10,241 bases of DNA from Prevotellaceae bacterium (GTDB lineage Bacteria; Bacteroidota; Bacteroidia; Bacteroidales; Bacteroidaceae): assembly GCA_021204715.1 (NCBI GenBank), contig JAJPYW010000177.1, positions 1 through 10,241 on the forward strand, written 5' to 3'. Under the pieces are notes generated by a model. That model did not search any database, was not told where the DNA came from, and saw only the letters and a program-made list of their open reading frames with translations. Each line of letters begins with the position of its first letter. Position 1 is the stretch's first letter. The position numbers were made by a program, and so were the translations under genes. This document shows positions 3,502 through 8,659 of this stretch, in pieces.

Positions 3502-4467
3502 ATGGGCATTTTCAAATCTTTCTTCTCAGGGAAAGCCGAAGATCCTGCCGAAGAGCAACAGAAGAACCTCAGGAAGAACTTCGAGCTATTTAAGTACGAC
3601 GGCATGCGCGCCGGACGCATGGGGCGCTTGGATTATGCCGTCAAGTGCTTCAACGAAGCCCTTGCCTTGCAGGACGACTTCGAGACCATGGGCTACTTGG
3701 CTCAGACCTACATCCAGACCAACCAATTGCAAGAGGCGCGCCACACGTTGGAGCGGATGCTGCAGAAGGAGCCTTCCCACCTTGCCACGCTCTTGAACCT
3801 TGCCGAAGTCTGCTTCATGTTGGACGACTACCCGGCCATGACCGCCGCCGCCGAAAAAGCGGCCGGGGTAAACCCCGACAGCCCTTCGGCTTGGTACCTG
3901 CTTGGCAAAGCGGCCCACGCCGGAGGCAATAACGACATCATGGCCATCGCCCACCTCACCAAAGCCCTTGTATTAGACGAGGACTACACCGAAGCCCGCC
4001 AGCTGCGTGCCGCTATCCTTGCCGGCATGGGGCAATACACAGAGGCGCTGGCCGAAGTAACGGTGCTTCTCGACCGTGACCAAGCCGACGAGAACGCCCT
4101 CTTGCTGCGCGCCCGCATCGCCCTTGCCACGGGCCACCCCGATGAAGCCGAGGCTGATTACCGCCGTTGCATTACGGTGCTCAATCCCTTCAACGAGCAG
4201 GCCTACCTCTCTTTGGGCCGTCTCTACATCAGCGGGGAAAAGTATCAAGAGGCCATTGACCTTTTTACCGAAGCCATCTCCAACCTGCCCGCCTTCGCCA
4301 TGGCTTACCACGAGCGGGGCCGTGCCAAGTTGCTTATCGGTGACAAAGAAGGCGCTGCCCAAGATTCCGCCGCCGCCCTTGCCATCCGGCCCGACGAGAT
4401 GCAAGGCTTCAACGGCCGTTATGGCGACATAGGCGGCAACTCCACGGGCGATATCCTTGGATTGTGA
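3502..4467 (+). CDS. tetratricopeptide-repeat (TPR) protein, cytoplasmic
   Basis: This is a 321-residue protein of unknown specific role. From about residue 28 to 303 it is built of roughly eight consecutive 34-residue TPR units, each with the usual small and large hydrophobic pattern. Examples are the helix pairs around AVKCFNEALAL, EARHTLERML, AIAHLTKALVLDED, EAIDLFTEAI and a last unit ending in ALAIRPDE. The short N-terminus (MGIFKSFFSG) is basic and amphipathic but has no signal-peptide hydrophobic core and no lipobox, so a cytosolic protein is most likely. TPR superhelices normally bind partner proteins or peptides; no catalytic domain is visible. It has its own promoter behind recQ and is followed by the aromatic operon leader, so context gives no clear partner. 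The ATG at 3502 is the first sensible start downstream of that promoter. Confidence 0.93.
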   Translation: MGIFKSFFSGKAEDPAEEQQKNLRKNFELFKYDGMRAGRMGRLDYAVKCFNEALALQDDFETMGYLAQTYIQTNQLQEARHTLERMLQKEPSHLATLLNLAEVCFMLDDYPAMTAAAEKAAGVNPDSPSAWYLLGKAAHAGGNNDIMAIAHLTKALVLDEDYTEARQLRAAILAGMGQYTEALAEVTVLLDRDQADENALLLRARIALATGHPDEAEADYRRCITVLNPFNEQAYLSLGRLYISGEKYQEAIDLFTEAISNLPAFAMAYHERGRAKLLIGDKEGAAQDSAAALAIRPDEMQGFNGRYGDIGGNSTGDILGL

Positions 4468-4504: not shown

Positions 4505-4538
4505 TTTGTTGGAATCTCGAAGAAAAGTATTAATTTTG
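4505..4538 (+). promoter_or_regulatory. Bacteroides-type promoter of the aromatic amino acid operon
   Basis: TAATTTTG at 4531-4538 matches the -7 consensus TAnnTTTG exactly. TTTG at 4505-4508 matches the -33 element with a 22-nt spacer, slightly longer than usual; an alternative GTTG at 4508-4511 gives 19 nt. Transcription would begin near 4545, about 20 nt upstream of the leader peptide start, so the whole attenuator would be in the transcript. This is the only strong promoter match seen ahead of pheA. Confidence 0.65.
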
Positions 4539-4566
4539 CAGCAAATAAAGATAAAAACAAGCAACT

Positions 4567-4653
4567 GTGAAAGCCTGGCGTTATGTATACTATTATTTCT
4601 TTTACTTTTACTTTGACCGGAAAGTAGAGCGGGAGTTTGTATGCATCAGGTGA
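4567..4653 (+). CDS. Tyr/Phe-rich leader peptide of the pheA operon attenuator
   Basis: This is a 28-codon reading frame starting with GTG and ending in TGA at 4651-4653. Residues 6-16 read YVYYYFFYFYF: six Tyr and four Phe in eleven codons. A further Phe lies at codon 24 and a single Trp at codon 4. An in-frame stop at 4552-4554 means GTG 4567 is the only plausible start, and no ATG lies in frame. The upstream region is A-rich without a clear Shine-Dalgarno, as is usual in Bacteroidota. The frame lies between a good promoter and a strong terminator directly ahead of Phe/Tyr biosynthesis genes, which is the layout of ribosome-mediated attenuators such as E. coli pheL. The peptide is probably not functional as a product; its translation rate is the signal. 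No experimental support is available from sequence alone. Confidence 0.85.
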   Translation: MKAWRYVYYYFFYFYFDRKVEREFVCIR

Positions 4654-4731
4654 CAGTGATGTTTGAAGAACCGAGTGAAAACTAATAGAAGACATAAATC
4701 CCGCTCCATCCTGATGGAAGCGGGTTTTTTT
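4606..4731 (+). promoter_or_regulatory. transcription attenuator: alternative RNA pairings in the leader
   Basis: Three pairings can be read. (1) TTTTACTTT (4606-4614, codons for Phe-Tyr-Phe) pairs with AAAGTAGAG (4621-4629) over 9 bp including two G-U pairs, with loop GACCGG. (2) GAGCGGGA (4627-4634) is perfectly complementary to TCCCGCTC (4699-4706), which includes the 5' arm of the terminator; this is the antiterminator. (3) The terminator hairpin at 4700-4724. A ribosome stalled in the Tyr/Phe run blocks pairing 1 and, with a usual footprint, just leaves 4627-4634 free, favouring antitermination. A ribosome near the stop codon covers that segment and the terminator forms. A further match, CATCAGG (4644-4650) with CCTGATG (4710-4716), could reinforce antitermination. 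The pairings are seen directly; the switching model is inferred. Confidence 0.75.
4700..4731 (+). terminator. intrinsic terminator (attenuator) upstream of pheA
   Basis: CCCGCTCCAT (4700-4709) pairs with ATGG-A-AGCGGG (4714-4724) around loop CCTG. This gives a 10-bp stem with one bulged A, followed at once by seven T residues (4725-4731). It lies 29 nt before the pheA start with no gene ending nearby, since the TPR gene stops more than 200 nt upstream. That placement supports conditional attenuation instead of simple end-of-gene termination. Confidence 0.88.
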
Positions 4732-4760: not shown

Positions 4761-5609
4761 ATGAAGAAGATAGCCATACAAGGAGGATTGGGATCCTACC
4801 ACGACATCGCGGCGCACCACTTTTTCGAAGGCGAACAGATAGAACTTATCTGCTGCGCCACTTTCGAAGAGGTGTTCGCCTCCATCAAGAAGGAGAGCCA
4901 CACCATCGGCATGCTGGCCATCGAGAACACCATTGCGGGCAGCTTGTTGCAGAACCACGAGTTGTTGCGCGAAAGCGGCACGCAGATTATCGGCGAGTAC
5001 AAGCTGCGCATCTCCCACAGCTTCGTCTGCCTGCCCGAAGAGAGTTGGGACGACATTACCGAAGTCAATTCCCACCCCATCGCCTTGATGCAGTGCCGTG
5101 AGTTTCTCTCCCGCCACCCCAAAATTAAAGTGGTGGAGAGTGAAGACACCGCCCTTAGCGCCGAGATTATCCACCGCGACCACCTCACGGGCCACGCCGC
5201 TATCTGTTCCAAGGCGGCCGCCCTTATGAACGGCATGAAAGTCTTGGAAGAAGGCATCGAGACCAACAAGCACAACTTCACCCGCTTCCTTGTGGTGGCC
5301 GACCCTTGGCAGGCCGACGAGCTGAACCGCCAGCGCGGTCTCCGGCCCAACAAAGCAGGCCTCGTCTTCACCCTGCCCCATACCGAAGGCAGCTTGTCGC
5401 ACGTGCTTTCCATTCTTTCGTTCTACCGCATCAACATGACCAAGATACAGTCCCTGCCCATTATCGGGCGCGAATGGGAATACCGCTTCTATGTAGATGT
5501 CGTGTTCGACGATGTGCTGCGTTACAAGCAAGCCGTTACAGCCATCACCCCCTTGACAAGAGAATTAAGAATATTAGGAGAATATGAAGAAGGAAAATCA
5601 AACATTTGA
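4761..5609 (+). CDS. pheA: prephenate dehydratase with C-terminal ACT regulatory domain
   Basis: This enzyme converts prephenate to phenylpyruvate, the committed step to phenylalanine. The 282 residues are the normal length for a monofunctional dehydratase; there is no N-terminal chorismate mutase as in E. coli PheA. The periplasmic-binding-like catalytic lobes run from about 1 to 180, with IENTIAGS (54-61), SHPIALMQC (104-112), AAICS (146-150) and the hallmark NFTRF (172-176) containing the catalytic Thr of the TRF motif. The ACT domain (about 198-275) has GSLSHVL (210-216) and IQSLP (229-233), matching the GALV and ESRP motifs that bind Phe, so feedback inhibition by Phe is likely. The ATG at 4761 follows the attenuator terminator directly. 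The 3' end overlaps the aminotransferase start by 26 nt, suggesting translational coupling. Confidence 0.97.
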   Translation: MKKIAIQGGLGSYHDIAAHHFFEGEQIELICCATFEEVFASIKKESHTIGMLAIENTIAGSLLQNHELLRESGTQIIGEYKLRISHSFVCLPEESWDDITEVNSHPIALMQCREFLSRHPKIKVVESEDTALSAEIIHRDHLTGHAAICSKAAALMNGMKVLEEGIETNKHNFTRFLVVADPWQADELNRQRGLRPNKAGLVFTLPHTEGSLSHVLSILSFYRINMTKIQSLPIIGREWEYRFYVDVVFDDVLRYKQAVTAITPLTRELRILGEYEEGKSNI

Positions 5610-6786
5610 GATAGCCCCGGCCCGGAGGTTGGAGACCGTCAGCGAGTACTACTTCTCGCGCAAGTTGAAAGAAGTGGCCCAGATGAACGCCCAAGGCAAG
5701 GACGTCATCAGCTTGGGCGTGGGCAGCCCCGACATGCCTCCTTCCAAAGCGGCCATCGACACCCTGTGCCAAGCGGCACGCGATCCCGACGGCCACGGCT
5801 ACCAGCTCCACACCGGCATCCCCGAACTGTTGCAAGGCTTTGCCCGCTGGTACAAGACGTGGTACCATGCCGACTTGGATCCCCGGCACGAGATACTCCC
5901 CCTTATCGGCTCCAAAGAGGGCATTCTGCACGTCACGCTGGCTTTCGTCAATCCCGGCGAGCAGGTGTTGGTGCCCAATCCCGGCTATCCCACCTACACC
6001 TCCTTGAGCAAGCTGTTGGGTGCCGATGTAGTCTATTACAACCTCAAAGAGGAGAACCACTGGCAGCCCGACTTCGACGAGTTGGAGCAGATGGATCTTT
6101 CCCGTGTGAAGTTGATGTGGACCAACTACCCTAATATGCCCACCGGCGCCAACGCCACTCCCGCACTCTACGAGCGCCTCGTGGCCTTCGCCCGTCGCAA
6201 AGGCATCATCGTGGTCAATGACAACCCCTACAGCTTCATCTTGAACGACACGCCCCTGAGCATACTCGCCGTGCCCGGCGCCAAGGAGTGCTGCATCGAG
6301 CTCAACTCCATGAGCAAGGCCCACAACATGCCCGGCTGGCGCCTTGGCATGGTGGCCACCAACGCCCGGTTCATCGGCTATATACTCAAAGTGATGAGCA
6401 ACATCGAGAGCGGCATCTTCCGGGCCATGCAACTCGCCGCCGCCACCGCTTTGCAGGCCAACGCCTCTTGGTATGAAGGCAACAACCGCAACTACCGCGG
6501 CCGCCGGCAGTTGGCAGGAGAGATAATGCACGCCTTGGGCTGCACCTACGACGAGAACCAAGTGGGCATGTTCCTTTGGGGACGCATCCCCGACAGTTGC
6601 CCCGATGTGGAGCAACTTGCCGACCGTGTACTCTACAACGCCCGTGTGTTCATCACCCCCGGTTTCATTTTCGGCAGCAACGGCAGCCGCTACATCCGCA
6701 TCTCCCTCTGTTGCAAGGACGATAAATTGGCCGAAGCCCTCGACCGAATCAAGCAAATGCAGCAAGCCGCTACGCCCCAACCCTAA
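5584..6786 (+). CDS. PLP-dependent class I/II aminotransferase, probably aromatic
   Basis: This 400-residue fold-type I aminotransferase probably performs the last step to Phe and Tyr (transamination of phenylpyruvate and 4-hydroxyphenylpyruvate). That role is inferred from operon position, not from specificity residues. PLP-site residues visible are Asn184 in NYPNMPTG, Asp213 and Tyr216 in NDNPY, the Schiff-base lysine Lys245 in SMSKAHNMPGW, and the substrate-carboxylate Arg372 in RYIRIS. GSPDMPPS near the N-terminus matches the usual glycine/proline motif. The start at 5584 lies inside the pheA 3' end and has AGGAG only 3 nt upstream, a rare clear Shine-Dalgarno-like site here. Alternatives are an aspartate or LL-diaminopimelate-type aminotransferase, whose sequences are similar, or a prephenate aminotransferase. 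The family is secure; the substrate is moderately so. Confidence 0.95.
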   Translation: MKKENQTFEIAPARRLETVSEYYFSRKLKEVAQMNAQGKDVISLGVGSPDMPPSKAAIDTLCQAARDPDGHGYQLHTGIPELLQGFARWYKTWYHADLDPRHEILPLIGSKEGILHVTLAFVNPGEQVLVPNPGYPTYTSLSKLLGADVVYYNLKEENHWQPDFDELEQMDLSRVKLMWTNYPNMPTGANATPALYERLVAFARRKGIIVVNDNPYSFILNDTPLSILAVPGAKECCIELNSMSKAHNMPGWRLGMVATNARFIGYILKVMSNIESGIFRAMQLAAATALQANASWYEGNNRNYRGRRQLAGEIMHALGCTYDENQVGMFLWGRIPDSCPDVEQLADRVLYNARVFITPGFIFGSNGSRYIRISLCCKDDKLAEALDRIKQMQQAATPQP

Positions 6787-6813: not shown

Positions 6814-7881
6814 ATGGAACTCCAATTACAACCCATCCTCCTCGACGGTGTGCCGCCCAAGCGCCCCATCGTCATTGCCGGCCCCTGCAGTGCCGAAACC
6901 GAGGAACAAGTCATGAGTACAGCCCGCCAGTTGGCAAGCAAGGGTATCAAGATATTCCGCGCCGGCATCTGGAAGCCCCGCACCAAGCCGGGAGGCTTCG
7001 AAGGCGTCGGCGTGGCCGGCCTGCCCTGGTTGCAGCGCGTCAGGCAAGAAACCGGCATGTATGTCACCACCGAAGTAGCCACATCCAAGCACGTTGAAGA
7101 GGCTTTGAAAGCCGGCATCGACATCCTCTGGATTGGCGCCCGCACCTCTGCCAACCCCTTTGCCATGCAGGACGTGGCCGATGCCTTGAAAGGCGTGGAC
7201 ATCCCCGTCTTGGTGAAGAACCCCGTCAACCCCGACCTTGAGCTTTGGATTGGCGCTTTGGAACGCATCAACAATGCCGGCGTGAAGCGCATTGCCGCCA
7301 TTCACCGCGGTTTCAGCAGCTACGACAAGAAGATATACCGCAACCTGCCCCAGTGGCACATCCCCATCGAGTTGCGCCGCCGCATCCCCAACCTGCCCAT
7401 CATCTGCGATCCCAGTCACATCGGCGGCAAGCGCGAACTCATCGCCCCGCTCTGCCAGCAGGCCATGGACTTAGGCTTCAACGGGCTCATCATCGAGAGC
7501 CACTGCAACCCCGACTGCGCTTGGAGCGACGCCTCCCAGCAAGTCACCCCCGATGTGCTCGACTACATCCTCAGCCTGCTTGTCATCCGCAAGGAGAAGC
7601 AGAGCACCGAAAACCTTAGCGCCTTGCGCAAGCAAATCGACGAATGTGACGACAACATCATCCAAGAGCTCTCCAAGCGCATGCGCATCTCCCGTGAAAT
7701 CGGCACCTACAAGAAGGAGCACGACATGACCATCCTGCAGACCGACCGTTACAACGAGATTCTCGACAAGCGCGGCTCGCAAGGCATCCTGTGCGGCATG
7801 CATCCCGAGTTCTTAAAGAAAGTGTTCGAAGCCATACACGAAGAGAGTGTCAGGCAACAGATGGAAATAATCAACAAGTAA
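6814..7881 (+). CDS. bifunctional DAHP synthase (type I-beta) / chorismate mutase (AroQ)
   Basis: This 355-residue fusion has two activities. The N-terminal TIM barrel (about 1-262) condenses PEP and erythrose 4-phosphate to DAHP, the first shikimate step. The C-terminal helical domain (about 266-355) turns chorismate into prephenate. Barrel motifs are GPCS (23-26), RAGIWKPRT (49-57), GARTSAN (108-114), LVKNP (133-137), HRGF (164-167), CDPSHIGG (198-205) and IESH (227-230). Cys25, His202, Glu228 and Asp239 fit the metal ligands. The mutase begins at ALRKQID, with Arg272, Arg289, Lys300, Arg312 and Gln349 at expected AroQ active-site positions. No N-terminal ACT-like domain is present. The same order (synthase first) is known from Porphyromonas and Prevotella enzymes, where the mutase domain also mediates prephenate feedback. 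It follows the aminotransferase by 27 nt. Confidence 0.97.
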   Translation: MELQLQPILLDGVPPKRPIVIAGPCSAETEEQVMSTARQLASKGIKIFRAGIWKPRTKPGGFEGVGVAGLPWLQRVRQETGMYVTTEVATSKHVEEALKAGIDILWIGARTSANPFAMQDVADALKGVDIPVLVKNPVNPDLELWIGALERINNAGVKRIAAIHRGFSSYDKKIYRNLPQWHIPIELRRRIPNLPIICDPSHIGGKRELIAPLCQQAMDLGFNGLIIESHCNPDCAWSDASQQVTPDVLDYILSLLVIRKEKQSTENLSALRKQIDECDDNIIQELSKRMRISREIGTYKKEHDMTILQTDRYNEILDKRGSQGILCGMHPEFLKKVFEAIHEESVRQQMEIINK

Positions 7882-7882
7882 C

Positions 7883-8659
7883 ATGCGTATATTGATACTT
7901 GGAGCCGGCAAGATGGGCTCCTTCTTTACAGACGTCTTGAGTTTCAAGCACGAAACGGCCGTTTACGACACCAACCCGCAGCAGTTGCGTTTCGTCTACA
8001 ACACCTACCGTTTCACCACCTTGGACGAAATCAAGGAGTTCGTCCCCGAGCTGGTCATCAACGCCGTCACGGTGAAGTACACCATCGAAGCCTTCAAGCA
8101 AGTGCTGCCCGTTCTTCCATCTGACTGCATTATCAGCGACATCGCCTCGGTGAAGACCGGCTTGAAGCGCTTCTACGAGACCTGCGGCTTCCGCTACTAC
8201 GTCTCCACGCACCCCATGTTCGGTCCTACTTTCGCCAGCCTGAGCAACCTTAGCAGCGAGAGTGCCATCATCATCAGCGAAGGCGACCACTTGGGAAAGA
8301 TCTTCTTCAAAGACCTTTACCAGTCTCTCAAGCTCAATATCTTCGAGTACACCTTTGAAGAGCACGACCAGACGGTGGCCTACTCCCTCTCCATCCCCTT
8401 CGTCTCCACCCTTGTCTTCTCCGCTGTCATGAAGCACCAAGAGGCGCCGGGCACCACCTTCAAGAAGCATTTGGCCATAGCCAAAGGCCTGCTCAGCGAA
8501 GACGAGTACCTGCTACAGGAGATCCTCTTCAACCCCCGTACCCCCGCGCAGGTAGAGAACATCCGCTTGGAGCTGAAGAAACTCTTGGAGATTATCCAGA
8601 AGAAAGACGCTGAAGGGCTGAAAGCCTATTTGGAAAAGGTGCGGATGAACATTAAGTAG
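7883..8659 (+). CDS. tyrA: prephenate dehydrogenase
   Basis: This enzyme oxidatively decarboxylates prephenate to 4-hydroxyphenylpyruvate, the committed step to tyrosine. The 258 residues contain an N-terminal Rossmann fold with GAGKMG (7-12) and an acidic Asp29 at the end of the second strand (VYDTN), which favours NAD+ over NADP+. SDIASVKTGL (85-94) and the family signature STHPMFGP (108-115), with the active-site His110, follow. The rest is the helical dimerisation domain. There is no C-terminal ACT domain and no fused chorismate mutase, so it is the short form. Only one base separates it from the stop of the DAHP synthase gene, which implies translational coupling. It is the last gene of the operon; a structured 3' region and terminator follow. 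Confidence 0.96.
   Translation: MRILILGAGKMGSFFTDVLSFKHETAVYDTNPQQLRFVYNTYRFTTLDEIKEFVPELVINAVTVKYTIEAFKQVLPVLPSDCIISDIASVKTGLKRFYETCGFRYYVSTHPMFGPTFASLSNLSSESAIIISEGDHLGKIFFKDLYQSLKLNIFEYTFEEHDQTVAYSLSIPFVSTLVFSAVMKHQEAPGTTFKKHLAIAKGLLSEDEYLLQEILFNPRTPAQVENIRLELKKLLEIIQKKDAEGLKAYLEKVRMNIK

Follow-up and report, generated by a model that had tools for sequence, protein, structure and literature searches.

The interval upstream of pheA in a Prevotellaceae genome raises the question of whether a short reading frame crowded with Tyr and Phe codons controls the aromatic amino acid operon behind it, in a class of bacteria that initiates translation differently. The window, which is the whole stretch of 10,241 nucleotides that was analysed, carries a recJ-like gene, a recQ-like gene, and then a gene for a TPR protein. 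They are followed by pheA, an aminotransferase gene, a DAHP synthase/chorismate mutase fusion gene, and tyrA. The TPR gene lies on the same strand as the leader and ends at 4467, and the interval from there to 4761 contains a promoter-like motif, a 28-codon frame, and a terminator. On comparison with related genomes, we consider this element very likely (probability of roughly 0.93) to be a ribosome-mediated transcription attenuator that would sense charged tRNA-Tyr and tRNA-Phe. Its parts and the genes of the operon are as follows (genomes and loci of the comparison are numbered with G and L, respectively).

4505–4508, + strand: TTTG, −33-like promoter element (TTTG/TTG 15–24 nt before TAnnTTTG in relatives)
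4531–4538, + strand: TAATTTTG, −7-like element (TAnnTTTG), conserved upstream of the leaders of relatives
4567–4653, + strand: leader peptide frame, 28 codons, GTG start, TGA stop, translation VKAWRYVYYYFFYFYFDRKVEREFVCIR
4582–4614, + strand: sensing run of six Tyr, four Phe, and one Val codon (codons 6–16)
4583–4590, + strand: segment 1, 5′ strand of the outer protector helix, pairing with 4639–4646
4627–4637, + strand: segment 2, 5′ strand of the antiterminator, GAGCGGGAGTT (RNAalifold consensus helix of the alignment)
4639–4646, + strand: 3′ strand of the protector helix 1:2 (pair probabilities, alignment pairing)
4696–4706, + strand: segment 3, 3′ strand of the antiterminator, overlapping the 5′ arm of the terminator (pairing, swap test)
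4700–4731, + strand: intrinsic terminator (segments 3:4) with U run (−14.9 kcal/mol; covariation)
4761–5609, + strand: pheA, prephenate dehydratase (PF00800, E 1.8e-52)
5584–6786, + strand: class I/II aminotransferase (PF00155, E 3.2e-56)
6814–7881, + strand: DAHP synthase fused to chorismate mutase (PF00793 and PF01817)
7883–8659, + strand: tyrA, prephenate dehydrogenase (PF02153, E 7.5e-10)

As listed, the frames of pheA and the aminotransferase overlap by 26 nt (5584–5609).

The leader frame

The original prediction described a 28-codon frame in which eleven consecutive codons include six for Tyr and four for Phe, and translation and codon counting of 4567–4653 reproduce this exactly. Tyr occupies codons 6, 8, 9, 10, 13, and 15, and Phe occupies codons 11, 12, 14, and 16. 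When both strands were scanned, this was the single site in the window at which a short frame holds at least six Tyr/Phe in 12 codons. The claimed GTG start without a Shine-Dalgarno sequence was also found: the frame opens with GTG at 4567, and the 20 nt 5′ of it (AAAGATAAAAACAAGCAACT) are A-rich and contain no Shine-Dalgarno-like stretch. The leader of the window is the sole one of 79 distinct close frames without an in-frame ATG before the run, in a comparison for which the script took ATG wherever present. This start codon is a point against the attenuator reading. A non-ATG start is not unique to the window, because the nearest start of six other leaders in the wider order sample is GTG (G131, G152, and G171) or TTG (G146, G167, and G175; in G167, an ATG is present one codon upstream of the TTG).

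Conservation of the leader before pheA

We collected 110 PheA loci of relatives, 30 from a genome search and 80 from named genomes that include Bacteroides, Mediterranea, Coprobacter, Muribaculaceae, and others. A Tyr/Phe run (at least six in 12 codons) lies upstream of pheA in 107 of the 110 loci, and the three misses have at most 143 nt of upstream DNA. The leaders of close relatives share the consensus MKSFTYAYYFFFYFYFSxKVEREFVCVK. Short frames of this kind are closely tied to pheA: in the 779,055 bases of the 80 named relatives' loci, searched on both strands, 56 frames with at least 10 Tyr/Phe lie upstream of pheA and none elsewhere, and at a cut of at least eight Tyr/Phe the same set holds 78 upstream of pheA and three elsewhere.

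For the order and the class, counts were anchored on the PheA protein, which avoids selection for the attenuator element itself. PheA was present in 63 of 148 genomes of the order sample, and 52 of these 63 possess a short frame with at least seven Tyr/Phe in 12 codons no more than 500 nt upstream, as against 3/63 on the antisense strand and 3/630 in shuffles. Among the 11 misses at this cut, G156 and G042 are contig ends with the leader on another contig (L118 and L152), the leader frame of G182 lies further upstream (L356), and G071, G074, and G079 have a leader score of 6, below the order cut of 7. In G083, G107, G126, G143, and G177, no leader frame was found within 500 nt upstream of pheA.

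The rest of the class was represented by 41 of its 44 PheA genomes (G341, G424, and G519 were left out). Here, 38 of 41 genomes carry the leader at a cut of at least six Tyr/Phe and 35 at a cut of at least seven, with antisense controls of 2/41 and 0/41, respectively. Three class genomes from one genus (L186, L187, and L197) have pheA without a leader, and no terminator was detected there by a simple finder that missed several others too. Downstream of the L186 pheA, an aminotransferase gene still follows (L316). Among 14 PheA genomes from other classes of the phylum, chosen mostly by PheA score, four have the leader. Given this spread, the element is probably old in Bacteroidia, and a few other lineages carry it too.

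Two broader screens were set aside. A count with an RNA model (87 of 295 genomes) was not clean, because weak matches include leaderless terminators, and the protein-anchored counts are used instead. Some of the matches between E 4e-4 and 0.01 are plain terminators, and nine of 20 fetched stretches lack a Tyr/Phe leader (L147–L151, L155, L157, L159, and L160; all at E 4.1e-4 or worse). A first class scan without a length or start-codon rule gave spurious windows for L170 and L174; the stricter rule underlies the reported counts and the swap test described below.

In several loci, the unit is doubled. A single pheA is preceded by two attenuators in series in Coprobacter secundus (L102) and in L125, L130, L132, L135, L138, L143, and L154, and the second copies in serial leaders match the RNA model with E-values of 2e-7 to 0.0023. 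L152 likewise has two units in series, with no gene after them in the stretch, and in L357 two Tyr/Phe leader units precede an aminotransferase-tyrA operon. The second serial unit in several loci encodes a different peptide with the tail IIRWD. A further locus, L104 (JAMPHR010000004.1), is titled as a Paenibacillus MAG and combines a Bacteroidales-like pheA (59% identity) with a Tyr/Phe leader; this record may be mislabelled.

Alternative RNA structures

Behind the frame, a terminator and then pheA had been claimed, and both are in place (4700–4731, −14.9 kcal/mol, and PF00800 from 4761, respectively). The terminator stem consists of 4700–4705 paired with 4719–4724 and 4706–4709 paired with 4714–4717, followed by the U run at 4725–4731. 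Segment 4 (4719–4724) pairs with segment 3. A simple promoter/terminator scan detected no terminator here and missed the stem at 4700–4724. The sigma-70-like site that the same scan placed inside the leader is at chance level (one found, 0.7 expected) and was discarded.

Pairing, alignment, and the swap test show that antiterminator and terminator are mutually exclusive, with segment 3 common to both. The codon run pairs on both sides of segment 2 (4583–4590 with 4639–4646, and UACUUU with AAAGUA), and the resulting 1:2 protector hairpin overlaps the run according to both pair probabilities and the alignment. This is the anatomy of an attenuator. The best duplex start in segment 2 lies a median of 12 nt after the last Tyr/Phe codon (interquartile range 9–14, n = 160), an offset that we take to approximate the stretch that a stalled ribosome would cover.

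After the equilibrium fold of the free downstream part had favoured the terminator, folding was carried out state by state along the growing transcript. When the window was folded without a ribosome, the 1:2 pairs reached probabilities of 0.96–1.0 (outermost pair, ∼0.5); in this state, 1:2 stands at ∼0.99, the antiterminator at 0.00, and the terminator at 0.94–1.0 except for its last pair (0.51). With everything before 4627 hidden, as for a ribosome on the run, the antiterminator holds 0.96–1.0 until the polymerase passes 4719. Once segment 4 has emerged in this state, the terminator wins at equilibrium (∼0.92 versus ∼0.08 for the antiterminator at 4731). With the full leader present, the terminator is thus favoured at equilibrium even when the run is occupied, and therefore the switch must be kinetic. 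With 4634–4664 hidden, the footprint assumed for a ribosome that has reached the stop codon, the transcript from position 4665 onward adopts the terminator fold. The stop codon of the window leader lies beyond segment 2, so that the separation of segments 2 and 3 by a finishing ribosome rests on 1:2 reforming. A stop codon before segment 2 was considered as the ancestral form and dropped: in a 91-leader subset, the stop codon lies at or before segment 2 in 18 leaders, in its first 8 nt in nine, and beyond it in 64.

We infer that the leader would be translated, that its ribosome would be coupled to the polymerase, and that the element would respond to amino acid supply. Transcription would start near 4545, as judged from the position of the −7-like element, and a ribosome would translate the short leader frame. 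If Tyr and Phe are ample, the ribosome would run through, and 1:2 would reform or segment 2 would be covered. With segment 2 unavailable, the terminator would form and RNA polymerase would stop near 4731. If Tyr or Phe is short, the ribosome would stall on 4582–4614 and occupy segment 1. Segment 2, which begins at 4627 directly in front of the ribosome, would be free to pair with segment 3. The 2:3 pairing would then let the polymerase continue into pheA-AT-DAHPS/CM-tyrA. If there is no ribosome at all, 1:2 would sequester segment 2 and termination would follow.

Covariation of the RNA segments

The comparison proposed with the original prediction was whether codon run, terminator, and antiterminator co-vary in relatives, and the pheA upstream regions, an alignment, and a swap test show that the three occur together and do so. 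The alignment (A1) comprises 62 rows out of 88 cut upstream regions. In five further loci (L025, L026, L053, L104, and L109), no T run was detected, L108 was mis-cut, and near-duplicates as well as L088, L102, and L103 were omitted by hand. The RNAalifold consensus of these rows is the antiterminator, with a covariation term of only −0.13. Counted by helix, 92.2% of cells are paired in 1:2, 97.0% in 2:3, and 85.0% in 3:4, whereas slid controls attain at most 63.4%, 49.8%, and 52.1%, respectively. Both sides have changed in four of the 14 pairs of 1:2, in six of the eight pairs of 2:3 (resting on 8 cells), and, in some row, in 10 of the 12 pairs of 3:4. Some controls are weak. For 1:2, 58 of 500 shuffles attain its count of pairs changed on both sides, and its pair types are attained in 431 of 500; for 2:3, 54 of 500 match the pair types; and for 3:4, a slide by one column gives 42 doubly changed cells versus 27, but fewer paired cells. 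The covariation of 1:2 is weaker than that of 2:3 and 3:4.

In the swap test, segment 2 of each leader was paired with its own terminator arm or with the arms of other leaders. Leader and hairpin were both found in 185 of 211 upstream regions, of which 160 are distinct; L001 (the window again), L034, L044, L106, the leaderless class loci L186, L187, and L197, and ten leaderless loci of other classes did not enter. Own pairing averages −16.0 kcal/mol as compared with −11.7 kcal/mol for swapped pairing among the 160 distinct leaders (0/5000 permutations). In the 91-leader subset, which consists of the order and class samples and the loci from L102 on, the values are −15.2 and −9.7 kcal/mol (0/5000 permutations). 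The permutation figures overstate certainty because related leaders are not independent. Even so, segment 2 could fit its own arm better than swapped ones only if the two had co-varied.

The reading frame has left its own trace in the alignment. All 180 gap runs between the start codon and the end of the run are multiples of 3, whereas this holds for 18 of 231 further along, where the sequence is mostly untranslated; the counts are not independent because the same gap is common to many rows. Two conserved parts of the peptide, the Ala and the KVEREF tail, sit on the pairing strands of 1:2 and 2:3, and RNA pairing may therefore explain much of the peptide conservation. The Ala-to-Val change in the window retains a G-U pair.

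Codon content follows gene content

The Tyr/Phe codon content of the leader follows the gene content of the operon, and this is the strongest line of support as well as a new one. In five genomes from four families (G054, G064, G272, G074, and G134), a lone pheA has a leader with a Phe run. The run reads MTRFFTHFFFFFTQQ in G054, SFFFFFF in G074, and FVFGFLFCF in G134 (with one Tyr at codon 2). The leader of G064 is SFRFFFFFAFFF and that of G272 is similar; in both, Tyr is confined to positions close to the C-terminus. Conversely, eight detached tyrosine operons (G054, G064, G272, G177, G143, G134, G074, and G107) have Tyr-containing leaders. They include MNNTFGYYAFYYYFFYNN in G054, MIKNISVFAYFYYYFYFSKK in G064 (G272 differs by one residue), MAPVHTYYAWSFFFFYFQNKRGHAV in G074, and two leaders in series, MMTTYTFSYFYYWFRTP and MVNFEFYYGFYYYLD, in G134. 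In G143, G177, and G107, the tyrosine operon carries a leader and the detached pheA has none in 500 nt. For the detached tyrA of G077 and G184, no leader was found in the 3.5 kb fetched.

We classed 46 of the 63 order genomes by gene content, four with pheA alone and 42 with a partner, defined as any aminotransferase, DAHP synthase/chorismate mutase, or tyrA gene in view (divergent ones may be missed). The other 17 sit at the end of a contig, lack a leader within 500 nt (including G126, with tyrA close by), or did not have their context fetched. The scored window is free of Tyr in three of the four lone pheA genes versus none of the 42 with partner genes (Fisher p 0.00026, in a test framed after the first split cases had been seen). 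G105 is a contrary case, with all partner genes and yet one Tyr codon. G184 and G060 are weak cases in which Tyr is kept and only a DAHP synthase gene was seen beside pheA.

A related case is G019 (L030), from the genus of the window, in which a DAHP synthase gene directly follows pheA and neither the aminotransferase gene nor tyrA adjoins. Its leader contains six Phe and zero Tyr codons, and a search of this 90%-complete genome gave no PDH_N match. The missing PDH_N match and adjoining tyrA suggest tyrosine auxotrophy. Together with G019, the detachments span five lineages (families f19, f29, f39, and f99, and the genus of the window), which we tentatively read as independent events. Trp codons were considered as a third signal and set aside, with Trp making up 0.95% of residues (1.6% excluding Tyr/Phe) in 148 distinct peptides.

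These runs also bear on the idea that the product of the short frame is a functional micropeptide rich in Tyr and Phe and that the terminator is a plain one, which we consider very improbable. Frame length and sequence are indeed conserved in close relatives, where 52 of 79 distinct frames have 28 codons, but what farther relatives retain is chiefly the codon run together with the RNA segments, and the frame ends vary. Moreover, the Ala and KVEREF residues that are conserved fall on pairing strands, and the leaders of detached pheA genes have runs made up entirely or almost entirely of Phe.

Relation to known systems

In the E. coli pheL-pheA leader, a short Phe-rich frame precedes the prephenate dehydratase gene, together with an antiterminator and a terminator that exclude each other. 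The element in the window resembles it in all of these features except that its codons mix Tyr with Phe, that it precedes a Phe and Tyr operon, and that it lacks a Shine-Dalgarno-like stretch. In codon content, the Phe runs of detached pheA leaders resemble E. coli pheL. The pheL/trpL-like logic that had been claimed is supported by the conserved run, the alternative helices, the covariation, and the own-arm pairing. Leaders of the E. coli ilvGMEDA type likewise combine codons for several operon products and differ in operon and amino acids.

A T-box, a riboswitch, or an RNA-binding protein could work the terminator without translation, with the frame being incidental. Such sensors serve amino acid operons in some bacteria, and terminator and antiterminator are conserved here, but the codon run, the reading frame, and their spacing are all conserved as well. 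No T-box or other Rfam riboswitch family reached its gathering score in the window, and the two best sub-threshold scores belong to leader-peptide families, RF01859 Phe_leader (20.7 bits, E 0.38, gathering cut-off 55) and RF00513 Trp_leader (17.3 bits, E 0.56, gathering cut-off 41). We regard a translation-free sensor as even less probable than a micropeptide.

A literature search, with most subscription papers outside its scope, found no paper evidently describing a leader peptide of the Tyr/Phe type in Bacteroidota. A survey that Lopatovskaya and colleagues published in 2010 may bear on novelty. The original prediction knew of no well-described Phe/Tyr attenuator in the phylum, but the element is not without precedent there: a putative attenuator before B. 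thetaiotaomicron pheA>hisHb>aroAIbeta-aroQ>tyrA, taken from Merino's prediction site, is listed in Table 7 of PMC1173090 (2005), and structured, conserved 5′ elements of pheA and hisG were reported in Flavobacterium together with the suggestion of leader-peptide attenuation of amino acid operons (PMC9723704, 2021). The former precedes the same gene order as in the window, in a Bacteroides, and is very probably the same element; the part of PMC1173090 that concerns it does not describe a leader peptide, codon run, or conservation. The pheA element of Flavobacterium psychrophilum is from the same phylum, is kept in other Flavobacteriaceae, and has no Rfam match; its account in the relevant part of PMC9723704 is without Tyr/Phe codons, tandem copies, codon switching, or class-wide spread. 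Short frames reminiscent of leader peptides also occur in long B. thetaiotaomicron 5′ UTRs (PMC7366714), and, to the knowledge of the authors of PMC2965389 (2010), no phyla other than Proteobacteria and Actinobacteria had by then been shown to have leader-peptide systems. Because of the 2005 and 2021 reports, the kind of element is already known, and the breadth and the codon logic of the Tyr/Phe leader look new.

Short frames with His-codon runs (e.g. MKYTVAHHHHHFPNE; at least four His in 10 codons) precede hisG in 24 of 30 loci (L324–L353), a count without chance control, and point to a His attenuator of the same kind. In the hisG locus of the window's own genome (L348), no His-run frame was seen.

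A promoter-like motif upstream of the leader

The TTTG at 4505–4508 and the TAnnTTTG element at 4531–4538 form what we take to be a −33-/−7-like promoter motif. TAnnTTTG is found upstream of the leader in 89 of 90 distinct regions from relatives, as compared with 7.3% of shuffles, and TTTG/TTG stands 15–24 nt before it in 86 of 90 (1.3% of shuffles). That the terminator merely ends the transcript of the TPR gene, which does stop upstream at 4467 on the same strand, and that the run arose by chance is the least probable explanation, since this motif lies before the leader in nearly every region, such Tyr/Phe frames occur almost exclusively before pheA in the named loci, and the leader recurs before pheA in many families.

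Implications

Beyond the window, we think it likely that leader-peptide attenuation is an ancient and general control of amino acid operons in the class and operates without Shine-Dalgarno initiation, hence implying close ribosome-polymerase coupling in Bacteroidia. The leader would be a modular codon sensor that gains or loses Tyr and Phe codons in step with the operon genes and is doubled in series in several families. The operon splits would then be natural codon swaps that reveal what the sensor reads. RNA models such as the present one could aid the annotation of aromatic regulation in the order. As leader-peptide attenuation needs a ribosome that keeps pace with RNA polymerase, a conserved working attenuator would make coupling in Bacteroidia, a large gut and environmental group, directly testable by a small reporter.
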